Source: Bacilli bacterium (GTDB lineage: Bacteria; Bacillota_I; Bacilli_A; RF39; UBA660). Taken from it: a stretch of 64,000 nt of DNA. Positions 3,803 to 61,808 of the stretch are shown in pieces; the first letter of the stretch is position 1; the number at the start of each line of letters is the position of its first letter. The position numbers were made by a program, and so were the translations under genes. The notes under the pieces were generated by a model, which saw only the letters and a program-made list of their open reading frames with translations, searched no databases and was not told where the DNA came from. The stretch lies in the NCBI GenBank assembly GCA_030602345.1, contig JAUVZX010000002.1, forward strand, positions 1 to 64,000, written 5' to 3'.

Positions 3803-5782
3803 TCAAGATTTCAACTTTTTTTTATTTTTAAGAGCCAACGTTTCGTCCGTTTTATTTTTATATTTCTTAATAAAAATATTCATGCCAGTTAATATCAATG
3901 ATAGCAATACTATAATACCAAAAGAGGATATTAACATTATACTTAGATCATTTGGCTTAGAAATATTACTTATTATATCGCTACTATCCTTTTTGGCAAG
4001 ATCAGAAGAATTGTTATTTTCGGCTGATTCTTCAACAGCATCAGTAGTTTCAGTGTCTATATTTTCTAAAATCTTTTTGGAAGAACTTAACTCTACTTTC
4101 TTACCGTCGATTTTTGTAGCCGACATCATATATCTGCTATTATGACTAACAGTAAAGGTAATATAACCCTCACCATCAATGTAGATTTTTTCACCCACTC
4201 GTTCCAAAAATCCTGTATTCTCATTGTAGTAGTAAATATAGAGTTCTTTCACACCTAAATAATTTCTTAATGTATAATCTAATTTGATTTTTATTTTGGC
4301 TGGTGCAGGTAATTTACCATTCGGACTAAAAAGAAGAGAAACAACTTTCGCATCATCGAAAACTTCTTGCATACTGTCTCTATTGCTTTGTGTCTCTAAA
4401 TAAAGCGGGACAACCAGAATTTTAAGATTTACGTCTTTAGCCATATCAACTTCCGCTCCATTGAAAACCCATTGAAAACCTTCGTCTTCAAAAACTAAAA
4501 CTTTATCAGTGCCCTTTATTTTATCAAAAACTTCTTTCTTGGCTGTTGGCCATCCAGAGTAACTAATACCAATAACGCTACCTCCAGGTGCAGATGTTAT
4601 CTTTTCTAAAATATTTTTATCAACAGTAGATGTCACAACTTGATTTGGTTTTCTGTTATTTGTAATTTTTATAGTGAAATCGTCCTCAAAAAAAGGATCA
4701 TTTACGGCATCATAAGTTGTCTCATTGCCCTGGCTATCTTTAATTGAAGCAAAATACAATTTGCAATTTGAAGTTTGAAAAAATTGATCAAAAACAAATT
4801 TTCCTGTATATTCACCAGTTAAAGTATCATATTTTAAATATGAAGTTAAGAATTTATTGCCTAATTTCTCACATTCGAGCGTTAAATAAAACTGGGTTAT
4901 TGGAGAATTCGAGGTGATTTTAGCTCTTATTTGAATTTCAGATGGTGCAATCACTTCTTTTTTATTTATACTGATTTCTGTCAATTTTGGAGGATCGTAT
5001 ATTTCATTAATTTTAGAAATAACACTAAATTCAGGATATTTTTTGTCAGAACAATTATTATAATTATTATACCAATAACCACTACCGTTATCACCTGTAA
5101 TTCCTAAGTCCGAAATGCAATATGAACCATTAAGAGCATAGTCAGATAATTTGTACGTTGCGTAATAAACTTTCTCTTTTTCATTATAGCTAATATTAGT
5201 AGCTAGTGACTTAAAATTGCTTTCATGAGTCAAATATAGATATAGCCTATTTATAATTGAACCCTCTACAGGAGTGATAATAGCGGTAATCAAATCACCG
5301 GGATAATAAGAACTCTTATCAAAGGAAATCCTTTTCACTTCAGGTGAAGCCAAAGGATTGTCAACTTTACCATTAACCATAATTTTGATTGAAAAAAGAG
5401 GAACAGTTTCACTTTGTAACCATAATACATTATCAGCTTTATCAACAACTCTAACCTCACTAAGTATTAGCTCTCCCGACGATATGTTGCCAACCAATAT
5501 TTCGCCTTCGAAAGTATCGTTACCTACATAGAATAAAAATCCCTCGTAGCTAGTCGATCCACTATTTCTCGAAAATCTCACGGTAATATGACTCACTCCT
5601 GAAATATCATCTTCAGCTATAGCGGTAATTTTGAATTTTTCATTTGCACCAACTTCAATTTTGTTAACTGCTATACTAATCAAAGATGGTGGCGATTTAT
5701 CTTCAACACCAGATTCAACAGCATTTAGAGATGACGGAAAAAATAAAATTATCATTAGAAAAAAATATATAGTTTTGTTCAT
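3803..5782 (-). CDS. Membrane-anchored surface protein with repeated beta-sandwich domains
   Basis: The 659-residue protein has a signal peptide (MNKTIYFFLMIILFFPSSLN), an extracellular region and one membrane segment near 613-638 followed by a short Lys-rich tail, so it should be anchored outside the cell. At least three segments begin alike: PPSLISIAVNKIEVGANEKF, PEVKRISFDKSSYYPGDLI and PKLTEISINKKEVIAPSEI, each followed by strands, suggesting tandem Ig-like domains. A fourth module (about residues 390-560) ends in SHNSRYMMSATKID, a pattern common in cell-surface stalk proteins. A Ser/Glu/Asn-rich linker precedes the membrane. The start at 5782 follows GAGGTG. Function is unknown; adhesion or envelope maintenance are guesses. 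Confidence 0.7.
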   Translation of the reverse strand: MNKTIYFFLMIILFFPSSLNAVESGVEDKSPPSLISIAVNKIEVGANEKFKITAIAEDDISGVSHITVRFSRNSGSTSYEGFLFYVGNDTFEGEILVGNISSGELILSEVRVVDKADNVLWLQSETVPLFSIKIMVNGKVDNPLASPEVKRISFDKSSYYPGDLITAIITPVEGSIINRLYLYLTHESNFKSLATNISYNEKEKVYYATYKLSDYALNGSYCISDLGITGDNGSGYWYNNYNNCSDKKYPEFSVISKINEIYDPPKLTEISINKKEVIAPSEIQIRAKITSNSPITQFYLTLECEKLGNKFLTSYLKYDTLTGEYTGKFVFDQFFQTSNCKLYFASIKDSQGNETTYDAVNDPFFEDDFTIKITNNRKPNQVVTSTVDKNILEKITSAPGGSVIGISYSGWPTAKKEVFDKIKGTDKVLVFEDEGFQWVFNGAEVDMAKDVNLKILVVPLYLETQSNRDSMQEVFDDAKVVSLLFSPNGKLPAPAKIKIKLDYTLRNYLGVKELYIYYYNENTGFLERVGEKIYIDGEGYITFTVSHNSRYMMSATKIDGKKVELSSSKKILENIDTETTDAVEESAENNNSSDLAKKDSSDIISNISKPNDLSIMLISSFGIIVLLSLILTGMNIFIKKYKNKTDETLALKNKKKLKS

Positions 5783-5803: not shown

Positions 5804-5831
5804 ATTATAGCACACTTTCCAAATTCAACAA
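5804..5831 (-). promoter_or_regulatory. Promoter of the surface protein gene
   Basis: TATAAT at 5804-5809 is preceded on the minus strand by TTGTTG at 5826-5831 with a 16-base spacer. The start codon lies about 22 bases downstream. Confidence 0.55.
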
Positions 5832-6194
5832 TTTTTATCTAATATCAAGATAATTATAGAGGTAAAATAATAATTACTTTTATAGAAATAAGTACAAAAA
5901 ATATAAAGCAAGCTTGGTTTTTTCGTTTTTATTAAATATATCTTGCACGATAAAATAAAACTGCAAATTATGAATGACTCAGTAAATTAATTAGCACAAA
6001 TTTTAAATTGTTTTTATTGACTTCAACGCAGAAAATTTCGAAGAATATTGAACCAAACTATTGGCAATAGTTGTTAAGAAAACTTAGTAATTACTACATT
6101 ACTAGTGAACCAAACAAATAAGACGCCTATTTAGACTTCAATTATCTAAGGATTCAAGAAGAATATTAGCTTCTTCTTAATTTAATGCAAAATA
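5832..6194. other. Intergenic region with short inverted repeats, no gene seen
   Basis: Neither strand shows a convincing reading frame with a ribosome binding site. It contains small hairpins, for example AAGAAGAA/TTCTTCTT at 6156-6178 and AACTATT/AATAGTT near 6056-6073, and a repeated GAACCAAAC. It may be decayed sequence; no RNA family is recognisable. Confidence 0.4.
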
Positions 6195-31429: not shown

Positions 31430-31615
31430 CTAAAAAGTTTTTACTTTTTTTATTTTTTTGTTGAAGTCTATTCTAGGCATCATAATGCTTCTTTGGCATT
31501 TGAGACATTTAATTTTAATGTCCGCTCCTAGCCTAGTAACTTCCCAATTATTTTCTCCACAAGGGTGTTCTTTTCTCATAACAACAACACTTCCAAGTTG
31601 ATAGTTTTTATCCAT
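31430..31615 (-). CDS. DUF951 family protein
   Basis: A 61-residue protein starting MDKNYQLGSVVVMRKEHPCG and containing VTRLGADIKIKCLKCQRSIM. It fits DUF951, small proteins often encoded beside spo0J in Firmicutes. The Cys pattern (C19, CLKC) could bind zinc, and an OB-like beta fold is likely. The gene overlaps the spo0J stop by one base, so it is translated with it. Its function is not known. Confidence 0.85.
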   Translation of the reverse strand: MDKNYQLGSVVVMRKEHPCGENNWEVTRLGADIKIKCLKCQRSIMMPRIDFNKKIKKVKTF

Positions 31616-32475
31616 TATTCTTTCACATCCAAAACATCTAGGATCCTGTTTAAATCGGCATCATTAACAAATGCTATTTCTATTCTTTTATCTTTAATAA
31701 CGACCCTAGAATCTAATTTTTCTCTCAAAAGTTCTTGTGCATATAAATACTTATCGTTCGTGTCATGAATTTTATTGTTCGCATTTTTTTTGCTTGTCTT
31801 TTCAAGTTCGTGTACAGGCATAGATTTATTAACAATTTCATCAGCCATTTTAAACATATCTTCTACTTTTTCTTGTTTGCTTAAAAATCTTGCATGACTC
31901 ATTGATAGTTTACCGGTAACAACCATATCTTTTATTTCATCTGGTAATCTTAGTATTCCAATCATATTTGTAACATGACTTCTACTTTTTCCTAATTTTT
32001 TAGCTAATTCTTCTTGTGTTAACGACAATCTATCAATCATCATTTTATATGCCATGGCTTCTTCTATTGCGTTTAAATCCTCTCTTTGAAGGTTTTCTAA
32101 AAGGGCAATTTGCATCATATCTTGATCTGAGAATTCTCTCACAATTGCAGGTATTGTTTCTTTACCCGCCATTTTACTAGCGCGAACTCTTCTTTCGCCG
32201 GCAATTATTTCATAGCCATTGATTGCTTTTTTAACAATAATAGGTTGAAAAACGCCGTGCTCTTTAATTGATTCGGATAACTCAATCAACGCTTCTTCAT
32301 TAAATACTTTTCTTGGTTGATATGGGTTTGGTCTTAATAAGCCCAAATCAACATTCTTTATATCTTCCGGGCTAGAAGTATCATATATTTTTTGTTCGAT
32401 AGACTCCAAATCTAAGTTTTCACTGTTAAATAACTGTTCCAAGCCTTTTCCAAGCACTTTTCTTTTATTTTCCAT
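31615..32475 (-). CDS. spo0J: Chromosome partitioning protein ParB/Spo0J
   Basis: ParB binds parS sites, uses CTP to slide along DNA, and loads SMC. The 286-residue protein has the N-terminal segment KRKVLGKGLEQLF that stimulates ParA, then LRPNPYQPRK, the CTP-binding motifs GERRVRASKMAGKETIPAIV and LLENLQREDLNAIEEA, and the helix-turn-helix LTQEELAKKLGKSRSHVTNM. The ATG at 32475 overlaps the end of soj; a TTG three codons earlier is possible. Three likely target sites lie at 50756-50842. Confidence 0.96.
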   Translation of the reverse strand: MENKRKVLGKGLEQLFNSENLDLESIEQKIYDTSSPEDIKNVDLGLLRPNPYQPRKVFNEEALIELSESIKEHGVFQPIIVKKAINGYEIIAGERRVRASKMAGKETIPAIVREFSDQDMMQIALLENLQREDLNAIEEAMAYKMMIDRLSLTQEELAKKLGKSRSHVTNMIGILRLPDEIKDMVVTGKLSMSHARFLSKQEKVEDMFKMADEIVNKSMPVHELEKTSKKNANNKIHDTNDKYLYAQELLREKLDSRVVIKDKRIEIAFVNDADLNRILDVLDVKE

Positions 32476-33250
32476 TTCTATCAATCACTTCCTTCGCTAA
32501 ATTATGATAAGCTTTTGTTCCGTTGCTCATTGGATCATAAATACATATTGGTTTCCCATGACTTGGAGCTTCTGATAGCCTAACAAGTCTAGGAATAATT
32601 GTATCATAAACCCTCTCTTTAAAATATTCTTTTATTTCTCTAACCACATCCATACCTAGATTTGTTCTAGCATCGAGCATTGTTAGTAAAACACCTTCTA
32701 TATCAAGAGTTGGATTCAAATTTCTTTGAGCAAGCATAATCGTATTTAATAATTGCATAATCCCTTCCAAAGCAAAAAATTCACATTGCACTGGGATAAT
32801 TACAGAATCAGAGGCTGTAAGTGCGTTTGTAGTTAAAACCCCTAATGAAGGAGGGCAATCAATTATAATATAGTCAAAGTGCTTCTTAGCAATGTCTAAA
32901 TGTTGTTTTAATTGGCTTCCTTTTAAAAAACTAACATCAGTTCTACTTTTTTCAATTAATTCTATATCCGCTCCAGCTAAATTAATTGTAGCGGGAATGA
33001 CATATAAATTTTGAAATTCTGTTTTTATGATTGCGTCCTTCAAATCACTTTTACCAACTAATAAATCATAAACGCTTTTCTTGACCTCGGCCTTGTTTAT
33101 CCCTATTCCCGTCGTAGTGTTTCCTTGGGGATCCAAATCAACTAATAATACTTTTTTACCAAGCATCCCTAAAGAAGCAGATAAATTTATACTGGTTGTC
33201 GTCTTTCCAACTCCACCTTTTTGATTTACTAAAGATATTATTTTTCCCAT
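32465..33250 (-). CDS. soj: Chromosome partitioning ATPase ParA/Soj
   Basis: Soj is a deviant Walker ATPase that works with Spo0J in segregation and also adjusts DnaA activity. The 261-residue protein has the deviant P-loop KGGVGKTTTSIN (11-22), LLVDLDPQGNTTTGIG and YIIIDCPPSLGVLT. It has no N-terminal helix-turn-helix, as expected for chromosomal Soj. It lies directly between ftsH and spo0J. Confidence 0.96.
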   Translation of the reverse strand: MGKIISLVNQKGGVGKTTTSINLSASLGMLGKKVLLVDLDPQGNTTTGIGINKAEVKKSVYDLLVGKSDLKDAIIKTEFQNLYVIPATINLAGADIELIEKSRTDVSFLKGSQLKQHLDIAKKHFDYIIIDCPPSLGVLTTNALTASDSVIIPVQCEFFALEGIMQLLNTIMLAQRNLNPTLDIEGVLLTMLDARTNLGMDVVREIKEYFKERVYDTIIPRLVRLSEAPSHGKPICIYDPMSNGTKAYHNLAKEVIDRNGK

Positions 33251-45410: not shown

Positions 45411-46250
45411 TCAACTGTGATATTTTTTATATACTTCTTGTTTTGAAAGGCCCGCTTCTTTCGAAACTATTTTTATAGCTTCATTGGAAGAAAATCCTTT
45501 TTTAATATATTCATTAATTCTTTGTTCTATTTTTTCTTCACTTATATTTTTTTCTTGATTTATTTCTGGTGAAATAATTAAAACAATTTCTCCTTTAAAA
45601 ATATAATTCTCAAGCTTTAAAAATTCTTCTATTGTTCCTCTATATATTTGTTCGTACCTTTTGCTTATTTCCCGGGAAATAATTATCGTTCTGTTTCCAA
45701 TCATTTTTTCAACATCTTCTATTGTTTTTTTCAATCTAACTGGCGACTCATAAATAACAACAGGCGAATTTTCATTTTTAATTTCAATTAGTTGTTTTTC
45801 TCGATCTTTATTTTTTGTTTTTAAAAAACCTAGAAAAAAGAAGTTTGTAATGTCTAACCCTGACATTACTAAAGCGGGGACAAAAGCGGTTGCTCCCGGT
45901 AAACAAACAACATTAAACCCTTTTTCAATAACAGCCTTAATGATTATAGCACCAGGATCGCTTATTCCAGGTGTTCCTCTATCAGATATTAAAGCTAATT
46001 TTTTATTATCTTTTAATTTTGCTAATATTTCTTCTTTTTTTTCATTTTCATTAAAAGAGGCGCTGTGACTAATTTTATTAGTAATATTATAGTAGGTTAA
46101 TAATTTTTGCGCCTCTCTTTTGTCTTCAGCATAAATTTCATCGACCTCTTTTAATATAGTTAGCGCTCTAATAGTAATGTCTTCCATGTTACCTATCGGT
46201 GTGGGAACTATATATAAAGTTGGCTTGTCATCATAACTATTTTGAATCAT
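45411..46250 (-). CDS. rsmI: 16S rRNA (cytidine(1402)-2'-O)-methyltransferase RsmI
   Basis: RsmI methylates the ribose of C1402 in 16S rRNA. The 279-residue protein has the tetrapyrrole-methylase fold, starting TLYIVPTPIGNMEDITIRAL, then LISDRGTPGISDPGAIII, LPGATAFVPALVMSG, and YESPVRLKKT. A C-terminal helical part (SEEKIEQRINEYIKKGFSSN) is present. Order trmN6-like, rsmI matches Bacillus yabB-yabC, without the GIY-YIG gene usually between. Confidence 0.95.
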   Translation of the reverse strand: MIQNSYDDKPTLYIVPTPIGNMEDITIRALTILKEVDEIYAEDKREAQKLLTYYNITNKISHSASFNENEKKEEILAKLKDNKKLALISDRGTPGISDPGAIIIKAVIEKGFNVVCLPGATAFVPALVMSGLDITNFFFLGFLKTKNKDREKQLIEIKNENSPVVIYESPVRLKKTIEDVEKMIGNRTIIISREISKRYEQIYRGTIEEFLKLENYIFKGEIVLIISPEINQEKNISEEKIEQRINEYIKKGFSSNEAIKIVSKEAGLSKQEVYKKYHS

Positions 46251-50177: not shown

Positions 50178-50630
50178 TTATACCATTTTTTTGCATTTTT
50201 CTCTATTCCTTTTATCAAGAAAAAAGCTTTTTATTAGTTTGCTATATTCCCTATTAGTCGGTTTTATTTTTTCATAATTCACGTTTTTATAAGAATTGTT
50301 TTCCTTATAATTTTTTGTAAAACCAAATTTATCATTTTCATAATAGTAGTTTATTTTTTTTATTCTCGATTGAGTTATCGCTCCATAACACATCAAACAA
50401 GGCTCCATAGTAATATGCATTTCGCAATCATCAAGTCTCCATGTTTTTATTTTTTTACATGCTTTTTGAATTGCTATAATTTCTGCGTGATAAATAGCAT
50501 TTTTTTTATATTCTTTTTTATTGTAAGCTTTTGCTATAACTTTGTTATTTCTAATAATTATTGCAGCAACAGGAAAATCTCCGTTTTTGGCTGCTTTTTT
50601 TGACAATTTTAATAATTCTTTTTCGATCAT
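50178..50630 (-). CDS. tadA: tRNA-specific adenosine deaminase TadA
   Basis: TadA makes inosine at position 34 of tRNA-Arg(ACG). The 150-residue protein has the zinc site YHAEIIAIQKACKK (His-Ala-Glu) and MEPCLMCYGAITQSRI (PCxxC). The last part is basic (SKLIKSFFLDKRNREK). The ATG at 50630 follows AGGTGAAAAA, just after the SRP RNA terminator tract. It precedes dnaX by 18 bases. Confidence 0.95.
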   Translation of the reverse strand: MIEKELLKLSKKAAKNGDFPVAAIIIRNNKVIAKAYNKKEYKKNAIYHAEIIAIQKACKKIKTWRLDDCEMHITMEPCLMCYGAITQSRIKKINYYYENDKFGFTKNYKENNSYKNVNYEKIKPTNREYSKLIKSFFLDKRNREKCKKMV

Positions 50631-50719: not shown

Positions 50720-50736
50720 ATAATCTATTATATTAT

Positions 50737-50767
50737 GATTTATAAAATAAAACAATGTTTCACGTGA
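50737..50767 (-). promoter_or_regulatory. Likely promoter of the SRP RNA gene
   Basis: TATAAT lies on the minus strand about 10 bases before the RNA start (about 50729-50734). Seventeen bases upstream is TTGTTT (near 50752-50757), a weak -35, in the palindrome that carries the first parS site. The exact limits are approximate. Confidence 0.45.
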
Positions 50768-50783
50768 AACATTGTTTTATTTT
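50744..50783. terminator. 40-bp perfect palindrome, probable gyrA terminator, containing parS1
   Basis: Bases 50744-50763 are the exact reverse complement of 50764-50783, making a 20-base stem centred on CACGTG. On the minus strand it lies 31 bases after the gyrA stop and is followed by more T-rich sequence (TTTTATTTTAT). As RNA it would be a strong terminator; as DNA its middle 16 bases are a parS site. Confidence 0.75.
50756..50771. promoter_or_regulatory. parS site 1
   Basis: TGTTTCACGTGAAACA matches the Spo0J binding site consensus and is a perfect palindrome. It lies in the longer palindrome between gyrA and the SRP RNA gene. Confidence 0.9.
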
Positions 50784-50791
50784 TTGTTTAA

Positions 50792-50807
50792 TGTTTCACG
50801 TGAAACA
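50792..50807. promoter_or_regulatory. parS site 2
   Basis: A second TGTTTCACGTGAAACA, identical to site 1, within a 24-base perfect palindrome (50788-50811). Its left end is 36 bases after that of site 1. It lies between site 1 and the gyrA stop. Confidence 0.9.
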
Positions 50808-50814
50808 TTAATGA

Positions 50815-53259
50815 TTAATTTTCTGATGTTTCGCGTGAAACATCTTCTTCGGAAAACACTATTGAGGCTGCTGATACTTTCTGCTCATCTTTAAGATTTA
50901 TTAATCTTACGCCTTGAGAAACTCTTCCTATTGTTGAAACTTGCTCTAAGCTTATTCTAATAATAATTCCGCTGTCGGTAACAATTAGAAGTTCTTCTTT
51001 TCCTTCAACAGCTTTTATAACTACTATGTTACCGTTTTTATCAGTGACATTAAGAGCTTTTACTCCTTTGCTTCCGCGTTTTGTTTTTCTATACTCTTCG
51101 ATTTTTGTTTTTTTACCGTATCCTTTTTCTGTTAAAACTAAAACTTCTGAGTCATCATTTGCTGTTTCCATTCCTATTACGAATCCTGCATCTAAAGTTA
51201 TTCCTTTAACTCCTGCTGCATTTCTTCCCATAGGTCTCAATTCTTTTTCATCAAATCTTACAAGTCTTCCGTTCGATGATGCTATCAACAACTCTTTAGT
51301 ACCGTCTGTTTTTTTGACACTAACAAGTTTATCGTTCTCTTTTAACGAGATTGCAATTTTGCCTGTTTGACGAATTGAATCAAATTCATATATATTTGTT
51401 TTCTTTATAACACCATTTTGTGTACAAAATACAATATAATTATTTTCGTCTTCTTTTCCGATAGATAAGATTGATGTTACTCTCTCGTCTTTTTCTATTG
51501 GAATTAAGTTTACCATTGGTAAGCCTTTTGCTTGTCTACCATATTCAGGTATTTCATAGCCTTTCATTCGATAAACTTTTCCATTATTGGTAAAGAACAT
51601 AACGTAATCATGAGAATTAATAGTTAGAAGGTGTTCTACAAAATCTTCCTCATTTGTAGTCATTCCTTTAACTCCTACTCCCCCTCTGTTTTGTGATTTG
51701 TACGTATCTACCAAGATTCTTTTTATATAGCCTTTGTTAGTTACTGAAATTGTTATCACATCATTTGGGATTAAAGCTTCATCTTCAATATAATCAATCG
51801 CTGTCATATCAATTTTTGTTCTTCTTTCATCACCATATTTGTTTTTTACTTCAGTTAATTCCTCTTTTATTATATTAGATACTCTTTCTGTTGAAGATAA
51901 AATGTCTTTTAAATCCTTAATTGTTTCTAATAATTGAAGATATTCTTCTTCTATTTTTTCTCTTTCCAAACCAGTTAATCTTCTTAATTTCATTTCTAAA
52001 ATTGCTTTTGACTGTATTTCAGTAAGTGAAAATTTATTTATTAAGTTTTGGTTTGCTTCTTCGTCATTTTTTGCACTTTTGATTGTTTTAATTATTTCAT
52101 CAATATTATCTAAAGCTATTTTCAAACCCTCTACAATATGAGCTCTATTTTCTGCCTTGTCTAAATCATATCTTGTTCTTCTAATAATGATTTCTCTTTG
52201 ATGATCTAAATATTTTATTAATAATTCTTTTAAAGATAATATTCGTGGTTGTCCGTCTGCTAAAGCTAACGTGTTTATCCCATATGTTGTTTGTAATGAT
52301 GTGTGTTTAAATAGATTATTTAATATTACATTAGAATTACTATCTTTTCTTAATTCTATTACTATTTTTATACCGTCTCTATTAGATTCATCTCTAAGAT
52401 CTGTTATGCCATCTATTACTTTATCTCTTACGAGTTCTGCTATTCTTGTTATTAAATTAGCTTTGTTTACTTGATATGGTATTTCGGTAATAATTATTCT
52501 TTGTTTACCGTTAGCCATTTCTTCAATTGCGGCGTTTGATCTTATTGTTATTATGCCTTTTCCTGTTTCATACGCTTTTCTTATACCGGCATTCCCGAGT
52601 ATAGTTGCTCCAGTTGGAAAATCTGGACCTTTTATATATTCTAAAAGTTCATCTAGTGTTATGTCAGGATTATCAATCGTTGCAACTAGTGCTTCAATTA
52701 CCTCATTTAAGTTATGTGGTGGAATGTTTGTTGCCATTCCAACAGCTATTCCTGATGTTCCATTTACTATTAAATTTGGAAATCTAGCAGGTAAAACAAC
52801 TGGTTCTTGTTCACTTCCATCAAAGTTTTCTTTTTTATCAATAGTATCTTTTCCTATGTCTCGTATCATTTCTGCAGCTATTTTTGATAGTTTAGCTTCA
52901 GTATAACGCATTGCTGCTGCACTGTCTCCATCTATCGAACCAAAATTTCCATGCCCGTCTACTAGCATATATCTGATAGAAAAGTCTTGCGCCAACCTTA
53001 CTAAAGCATCATAAACAGAAGAATCTCCGTGAGGATGATACTTACCTAGTACATCCCCTACAATTCTTGCACATTTTCTATATTGCTTATCGGGTGTTAA
53101 TCCTAATTCATACATTGAATAAATTATTCTTCTATGTACAGGTTTAAATCCATCTCTTACATCTGGTAAGGCTCTAGAAACAATTACACTCATTGCATAA
53201 TCTAAGAAAGATTTTTCAATTTCGTTTTTTAAATTTATATCTAATAATTTTTCTGCCAT
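50815..53259 (-). CDS. gyrA: DNA gyrase subunit A
   Basis: GyrA cuts and rejoins DNA. The 814-residue protein has the catalytic Tyr at residue 119 ([10 protein letters not shown]) and the quinolone region [12 protein letters not shown] at 76-87 with Ser80 and Asp84, the wild-type-like residues. The C-terminal beta-pinwheel begins after the coiled coil; the GyrA box is degenerate (QNRGGVG). The last residues DVSRETSEN are encoded by sequence that carries a parS-type site. Follows gyrB by 10 bases. Confidence 0.97.
50827..50842. promoter_or_regulatory. parS site 3, inside the gyrA coding end
   Basis: TGTTTCGCGTGAAACA differs from sites 1 and 2 by one central base (A to G), so it is not perfectly symmetric. 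It overlaps the codons for VSRET near the end of GyrA and lies 35 bases after site 2. Confidence 0.75.
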
Positions 53260-60230: not shown

Positions 60231-61137
60231 AATTAAAATATTAATCGTTTTGATGTCTGTTTTTATTTTAAGTGGGTGTGTAGTTAGATTACAAGATGAA
60301 AATAAAAAAAATGTTGTAAATCCAACAACAGGACAAACTTTAACGAAAAACATATTGTGTCTTCCAGAAGATGAACAAATAATAGAAATGTATGAAAAAA
60401 ACAACGTAGATTTAAGTAATTTGCCAGAATGTGCTAACCTTCCATTATCGGGAGAAGAATACGAAGGATTATGGACCTCTTTCTTTGTAAGACCGTTAGC
60501 GTTTTTAATGACAAAGGTTGGTTCGTTTGTAGGAAACTATGGTTTTGCTATAATATTTGTAACACTGCTTATTAGAACGATTATGTATCCTATAACTAAA
60601 AAATCAGCAGAGCAATCAGAAAAAATGAAGAAAGCAAAACCGGATTTAGATTTAATTGAAAAAAAATATAAAGATAAAACAGACAGAGATTCTGTTTACC
60701 AAAAAAGCAATGAAATAGCTATGGTATATAAAAAACACGATATAGGTTTAATGTCTGGCATATTATTTTCATTTATACAGTTACCATTGTTTTTAGCGTT
60801 TTATGAATCAATGGTAAGGCTACCATCGATATTTGAAGAAACATTTTTAGTGTTTAATTTAGGAACCACTCCAATGAAAGCAATTTCATTAGGAAATTAT
60901 CATTATATAATATTTATAGCGCTAGTAGGACTAGCGACATATTATTCATTTAAGTTAACAGGATCGGTTGGTGTTTCTAAAGAACAGGAACAGATGCAAG
61001 CTAATATGATGAAATTTATGATAGGATTAATTTTCTTATCAACATTAATATTACCTGCAGGATTAGCAATTTATTGGATAACAAATAATATATTTACAAT
61101 AGGTCAAAACCTAATAAGTAAGTGGAGGATAAAATAA
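60220..61137 (+). CDS. yidC: Membrane protein insertase YidC (lipoprotein form)
   Basis: YidC inserts proteins into the membrane, alone or with SecYEG. The 305-residue protein has a lipoprotein signal peptide with ILSGC at residues 15-20, then a periplasmic-side segment and about five membrane segments. Conserved parts are LLIRTIMYPITKKSAEQSEK, MSGILFSFIQLPLFLAFYES and AGLAIYWITNNIFTIGQ. The catalytic Arg is in LIRT. yidD, often between rnpA and yidC, is absent. Confidence 0.96.
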   Translation: MKNKIKILIVLMSVFILSGCVVRLQDENKKNVVNPTTGQTLTKNILCLPEDEQIIEMYEKNNVDLSNLPECANLPLSGEEYEGLWTSFFVRPLAFLMTKVGSFVGNYGFAIIFVTLLIRTIMYPITKKSAEQSEKMKKAKPDLDLIEKKYKDKTDRDSVYQKSNEIAMVYKKHDIGLMSGILFSFIQLPLFLAFYESMVRLPSIFEETFLVFNLGTTPMKAISLGNYHYIIFIALVGLATYYSFKLTGSVGVSKEQEQMQANMMKFMIGLIFLSTLILPAGLAIYWITNNIFTIGQNLISKWRIK

Positions 61138-61754
61138 TGATAGAAAAATATGAAGTAGAATCAAAAACAAAAGAAGATGCAATTTTAAAATTAGTTTCAT
61201 TTACTGAACTTCCTGCAGAAGATCTATTTATTTCTTTTGAAGAAACAGAATCTAAAATATTAAAAAGCAAAAAAGTTATAGCAAAAGCTTATCGAAAAGT
61301 AGATATTTTAAGATATTTGAGAGAAACAATACAAGATTTTGCAAAATATGCAAATCTTGATATAAAAAGCGAAGTAAACTTAAGAGAAGATTACTATAAT
61401 GTACTACTTTTTTCAGAACAAGCTCATGTTTTAATTGGTAAAGAAGGTAAAAACTTAACTGCGCTCCAAATGTTTTTGAAGCATGCGTTAAATAATCAAA
61501 CAGGAATGAACATAAAAGTAAGTTTAGACATTTCAAATTATAAAGCTAAAAAACAAAAGTACTTTGAATTTGAAATTAAAAAAATAATAAAACAAGTGTT
61601 AAACACTCGCGAAGATGTTGTCCTAGATCCGATGAATTCATATGAAAGAAGAATAATTCATAATCTAGTTTCAGATTATCCGAACTTATCATCATTAAGC
61701 AATGGAGAAGGAAAAGAAAGAAAAGTAACAATTAAATATATTGAAAACAAATAA
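61137..61754 (+). CDS. jag: Jag/KhpB RNA-binding protein
   Basis: Jag (KhpB) works with KhpA on RNA and cell elongation or division. The protein of about 205 residues has an N-terminal Jag domain (EKYEVESKTKEDAILKL), a KH domain with HVLIGKEGKNLTALQMFL and a C-terminal R3H domain with RRIIHNLVSDYPNLSSLSNG. The ATG at 61137 shares a base with the yidC stop and follows GGAGG; a GTG at 61122 is less likely. Confidence 0.92.
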   Translation: MIEKYEVESKTKEDAILKLVSFTELPAEDLFISFEETESKILKSKKVIAKAYRKVDILRYLRETIQDFAKYANLDIKSEVNLREDYYNVLLFSEQAHVLIGKEGKNLTALQMFLKHALNNQTGMNIKVSLDISNYKAKKQKYFEFEIKKIIKQVLNTREDVVLDPMNSYERRIIHNLVSDYPNLSSLSNGEGKERKVTIKYIENK

Positions 61755-61780
61755 GAAGAGATATCTCTTCTTATTTGTTT
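61745..61780 (+). terminator. jag terminator (36-bp perfect palindrome)
   Basis: Bases 61745-61762 and 61763-61780 are exact reverse complements, with T-rich sequence after them (TTTATAG). The stem includes the jag stop codon. Confidence 0.8.
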
Positions 61781-61808
61781 TATAGTATAATATTAAAAGG
61801 TGATATAT

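Follow-up and report, generated by a model that had tools for sequence, protein, structure and literature searches.

The 40-bp perfect palindrome at positions 50744–50783 of the window, by which we mean the whole 64-kb stretch of DNA that was analysed, is best read as a parS site whose flanks became the transcription terminator of gyrA, a dual use to which we assign a probability of roughly 0.6. The sequence features, the gene order, and the recurrence and polarity of the arrangement in relatives were observed directly, and the relatives' sequences indicate that some members of the family, not all, combine the roles in this way.

The first-pass annotation had described a 20+20 perfect inverted repeat with a parS core, and this was borne out. 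The two arms (50744–50763 and 50764–50783; 20 nt each, spacer 0) are 100% complementary, the letters read AAAATAAAACAATGTTTCAC/GTGAAACATTGTTTTATTTT, and the centre (50756–50771) is TGTTTCACGTGAAACA, an exact member of the parS consensus TGTTNCACGTGNAACA. No other perfect palindrome in the window is as long, and about 9e-7 to 1e-6 palindromes with arms of at least 20 are expected there from base composition; given the parS core and a near-invariant A/T flank, 20-nt arms are expected at about 1e-6 per site. When the window was scanned for parS with up to 3 mismatches, 8 matches were obtained, a number above every one of 100 shuffles, while with up to 2 mismatches the genome (760,795 bases in 11 contigs, 98.8% complete) has sites only at 50756, 50792 and 50827. 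The site at 50792–50807 is a second exact consensus match with an arm of 12, lying just past the gyrA stop, and the one at 50827–50842 is a degenerate parS (TGTTTCGCGTGAAACA on the plus strand) within the 3' coding end of gyrA. The palindrome's parS, which had been called the first, is thus the third parS-like site met on leaving gyrA. The degenerate site encodes VSRET near the GyrA C terminus, and its altered base is silent for Arg and sits in the CACGTG centre, a part of the site that is reported to matter for binding by the P. aeruginosa ParB (PMC4368675). ParS-like sites in the gyrA 3' coding end are also seen in L121, L065, L046 and L034, the VSRET reading being shared with L121.

On the minus strand the order is gyrA, the parS at 50792, the palindrome, a small SRP RNA gene and a tadA-like gene. 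The gyrA gene (50815–53259, 814 aa) matches NCBIfam TIGR01063 with 1196 bits, and the SRP RNA gene (50725–50640) scores 40.4 bits with Rfam RF00169, for which the gathering score is 40, and is supported by synteny in relatives. The palindrome lies 31 nt beyond the gyrA stop (50815) and 18 nt ahead of the SRP RNA model start (50725). The ORF found 3' of the SRP RNA gene (50178–50630, minus strand) presumably encodes a tadA-like deaminase, a name given by synteny. Besides gyrA, the setting includes the minus-strand genes for ParB (Spo0J; 31615–32484, GERRVRA motif, TIGR00180 at 1.7e-60) and ParA (Soj; 32465–33250), so that the sites lie near origin-region genes in a genome that encodes both proteins (31615–33250). 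A second ParB-family protein is encoded just beyond the window (G000:C4:65793) and scores 267.7 bits with the Noc model, compared with 229.4 for the ParB of the window, and neither protein reaches the curated cut-off of 315. A Noc-type (NBS-like) site, TATTTCCCGGGAAATA with up to 2 mismatches, occurs once in the genome, at 45666–45681. The consensus match, the nearby parA-parB pair and the family habit of placing parS 3' of gyrA support the identification of the palindrome centre as parS.

In order to be a terminator of gyrA, the palindrome would act as RNA. Transcribed on the gyrA strand it is predicted to fold at -19 kcal/mol (z=-6.6), a stable hairpin just 3' of the gene, although its stem holds only 3 G-C pairs. 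A scan of the gyrA strand permitting a shorter stem gave a hairpin of -12.0 kcal/mol followed by TATTTTATAA; the U-tract UUUUAUUUU follows an inner 9-bp stem, yet once the full stem forms it is itself paired, with the A-tract. For this reason a strict terminator scan, in which the full stem is paired, lists the site with a T-tail on the plus strand only, opposite to gyrA. No further terminator-like hairpin was listed in the scanned interval between gyrA and the SRP RNA gene. Concerning the earlier proposal of a gyrA terminator, the strict scan thus speaks against it, while the folding energy and the focus of polarity and T-runs on gyrA-proximal parS sites in relatives (see below) speak for it; the comparison makes the role probable, short of proof. 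The second-longest perfect palindrome of the window (61744–61781, 19+19, A-left/T-right) carries no parS; it overlaps the stop codon of the ORF at 61122–61754, the next ORF starts at 61800, and it has the look of a terminator for both directions. In this window, long palindromes with A/T flanks thus stand at a gene end away from parS as well.

The proposed course of events is as follows. RNA polymerase leaving gyrA would transcribe the palindrome, and the RNA hairpin CAAUGUUUC-ACGU-GAAACAUUG, lengthened by A-U pairs, would form while the U-tract UUUUAUUUU is being made, whereupon transcription would stop. The -35 hexamer of an SRP RNA promoter (TTGTTT, with TATAAT 17 nt away) would come from the same far arm, a double use that we put down to the short distance of about 90 nt from gyrA to the SRP RNA gene, and ParB would load on the same 16–18 bp as double-stranded DNA. 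Termination would be achieved through RNA structure and not by a ParB roadblock, since ParB clusters do not stop an elongating RNA polymerase in vitro and are passed by it (PMC10681803). We infer from the sequence that RNA ends and RNA starts fall at this locus and that ParB binds there.

The locus was then compared across relatives, fetched by their GyrA (80 + 30 loci, including 'Bacillales bacterium UBA660', Candidatus Onthousia and Scybalousia, names which suggest that the family is probably the GTDB family UBA660, order RF39, of Bacilli). A parS site is present in 78 of 98 genomes of the family, and 318 parS sites were found near the gyrA 3' end in 102 distinct loci. The SRP RNA gene is near gyrA in 54 of the 56 loci scanned for it, and parS lies between the gyrA end and the SRP RNA for 49 of 55 SRP genes, which makes the succession gyrA, parS sites, SRP RNA a family trait. 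It is not obligatory, since L177 and L178, congeners of L135, run from gyrA into SRP RNA without parS; the interval likewise holds no parS in L066, L060, L133 and L134. Near-regular tandem parS arrays 3' of gyrA, with a period of about 28, 37, 39, 42 or 64 nt, were seen in L042, L119, L125, L036, L084 and L052, a spacing that seems unusually close for chromosomal sites. Many relatives (L051, L061, L142, L059, L108 and others) have sites of the Noc type, TATTTCCCGGGAAATA, scattered among the parS sites 3' of gyrA, and in L106 two SRP RNA genes in a row (5649–5734 and 5813–5898) are each bracketed by parS sites.

We then considered how far the inverted repeat extends past the core, distinguishing the gyrA-proximal site (the parS that comes first after gyrA and is no more than 100 nt away) from later, distal sites, with similar flanks removed as redundant. 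An extension of at least 4 bp was found at 19 of 53 gyrA-proximal sites, compared with 2.2 expected and a maximum of 8 in 2000 reshuffles of the right flanks, a null that ignores phylogeny, redundancy having been removed by similarity only. The possibility that relatives keep just the 16-bp core, which had been put forward as grounds for abandoning the proposal, gave a mixed picture, with 34 of the 53 extending by less than 4 bp and the other 19 by more. Extension by itself was rejected as proof of a terminator: distal sites are extended too (50 of 162, 9.6 expected), without polarity. The polarity is what sets the proximal sites apart, being A-left/T-right at 14 sites against 2 (46 pairs to 15), while distal sites are even (13 to 12 sites; 74 to 75 pairs). 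Concomitantly, an extension together with a T-run on the gyrA strand was found at 12 of 53 proximal but 5 of 162 distal sites (Fisher P=4e-5), and one of these five distal sites (L067, +326) lies directly after the SRP RNA gene. A scan for hairpins with T-runs detected a terminator in 51 of 92 gyrA 3' regions, compared with 7 of 99 reversed controls; in 15 regions the first terminator was the parS hairpin, in 33 it was a hairpin of its own that preceded the first parS, in 3 such a hairpin followed that parS, and none was detected in 41. We read these counts as indicating that gyrA is often trailed by a terminator and that parS provides its stem in about 1 case of 6. The parS terminators of L057 and L091 are textbook-like (AGGAA-parS-TTCCT-TTTTT), as are those of L106, L121 and L113.

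The most serious alternative, possible but in our judgement doubtful, is that symmetrical parS flanks reflect a flanking-base preference of ParB or template-switch (quasi-palindrome) mutation around a conserved core, termination being incidental. The excess of distal extension without polarity, quantified above, is what such a process would leave; moreover, extension propagates once begun, with a match probability of about 0.75 per step against a background of 0.35, and perfect cores have it more often than imperfect ones (57 of 156 versus 10 of 58, P=0.008). Long arms with the opposite, T-left polarity also exist in another family (24–26 in L154, L156 and L159). Neither an A-left/T-right polarity with T-runs specific to the first parS after gyrA nor the same design at a gene end devoid of parS (61744–61781) is predicted by this explanation.

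Beyond this family, parS palindromes that are extended and carry T-runs follow what we take, from the translations, to be a dacA-like gene (L146 and L147, the latter with an arm of 25) and an mnmE-like gene (L153). In another family (L154–L160) a pair of parS sites lies between presumed serS and tadA genes, with arms of up to 26, one site A-left and one T-left. A class-wide preference for T-runs after parS was sought and not found: 31 genomes have T-runs and 29 have A-runs among 346, and with these counts equal across the class the T-run is not a general property of parS. Arms of 24–28 are found elsewhere in Bacilli (L039, L147, L154, L156 and L159). The longest parS palindrome seen, at least 56 bp and perfect, is in L039, 851 nt after the gyrA stop.

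The far arm had also been proposed to supply a -35 region for the SRP RNA gene. On the minus strand, TTGTTT-17-TATAAT spans 50755–50727, with the putative -35 TTGTTT (50750–50755) in the palindrome arm, directly abutting the parS core, and the putative -10 TATAAT (50727–50732) after a 17-nt spacer. The -10 has 6/6 matches and the -35, a weak one, 3/6 to TTGACA, for which reason a standard promoter scan omitted the pair. The same register (parS-CA directly followed by TTGNNN-17-TATATT/TATAAT) recurs in four other distinct loci, L135, L040, L099/L112 and L142, by our reading of their sequences, the automatic picker having given noisy -35 calls for several loci. Since the flank of parS in this family is often ATTG, a -35 beside parS is easy to form. 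The poor -35 match speaks against the proposal; with the same register recurring in other loci, it is plausible that the palindrome arm supplies the -35 of the SRP RNA promoter.

That the three functions overlap had been called unusual. All three overlaps were seen in only one other locus, L135/L179, with a different sequence (GGTCAA-parS-TTGATTATTTTTTTT), and are absent from its congeners L177 and L178; the long extension, given the arms of 24–28 elsewhere, is not unique in itself. In L181, among the nearer relatives, there are three parS sites, of which the middle one carries a T-run and the third precedes the SRP promoter, and it is a guess that roles separate in L181 were fused by spacer shortening in this 0.76-Mb genome.

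The proximity of parS and promoter invites another explanation, which we hold to be improbable, in which the palindrome serves above all as an operator for ParB at the SRP RNA promoter, ParB on parS covering the -35 and coupling SRP RNA synthesis to segregation. In agreement with it, five distinct loci, this one among them, have parS directly against the putative -35, and ParB represses promoters adjoining parS3 and parS4 in P. aeruginosa (PMC5521831); a parS site also affects comCDE in S. pneumoniae (PMC7022226). The start of parS falls 40–60 nt ahead of SRP RNA in 17 of 35 nonredundant loci, but with 11.9 expected (P=0.03) this enrichment is weak and stems partly from short intergenic regions, and the idea that parS is strongly concentrated at the SRP promoter was rejected. 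The absence of parS between gyrA and SRP RNA in the L135 congeners and the four further loci named above argues against an operator, as does the failure of ParB to halt elongating RNA polymerase in vitro (PMC10681803). A wider version, in which this centromere site would be a three-way switch for ParB loading, gyrA termination and the SRP RNA -35, with ParB competing with sigma factor and tying SRP RNA supply to origin segregation, is likewise a long shot. Finally, it is very improbable that an ordinary parS in AT-rich DNA was lengthened by chance and does nothing more: AT-rich flanks lift the match probability to 0.29–0.35 per position, but 11 further matches come to about 1e-6 per site, and the family-wide excess of extension is disfavoured as chance by the reshuffling test, on which grounds a chance palindrome was rejected.

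If the terminator reading holds for part of the family, one short sequence would have a protein-DNA role as duplex and an RNA-structure role as transcript, although parS is normally treated as a pure DNA element, and the parS cluster would be shielded from the transcription of the upstream gene by its own hairpin. The reading would explain, simply and in a testable way, the long palindromes at some parS sites, and the family-wide gyrA, parS and SRP RNA loci would form a test set for any effect of ParB on how an essential RNA is expressed.

No publication describing parS as a terminator was found among the open-access papers searched, which is weak evidence of absence; PMC12779278, which had seemed a lead, proved unrelated. 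Compared with chromosomal parS of the ParABS (Spo0J/Soj) type, the locus shares the exact 16-bp consensus near origin-region genes and a parA-parB pair with a Noc-like paralogue; in the papers searched chromosomal parS is a 16-bp element with no termination role described, whereas here the site lies in a 40-bp perfect palindrome directly after a gene, with terminator polarity. The promoters at parS3 and parS4 of P. aeruginosa (PMC5521831) resemble it in having parS beside a promoter; no terminator role is reported for them, and the promoter here, a predicted one, would serve SRP RNA. With intrinsic (Rho-independent) bidirectional terminators the palindrome has in common a hairpin soon after the stop codon, A- and U-tract flanks and a design that could be used from either strand, but its stem is the predicted site of a segregation protein, is poor in G+C (3 G-C pairs) and has a U-tract that can pair with the A-tract.
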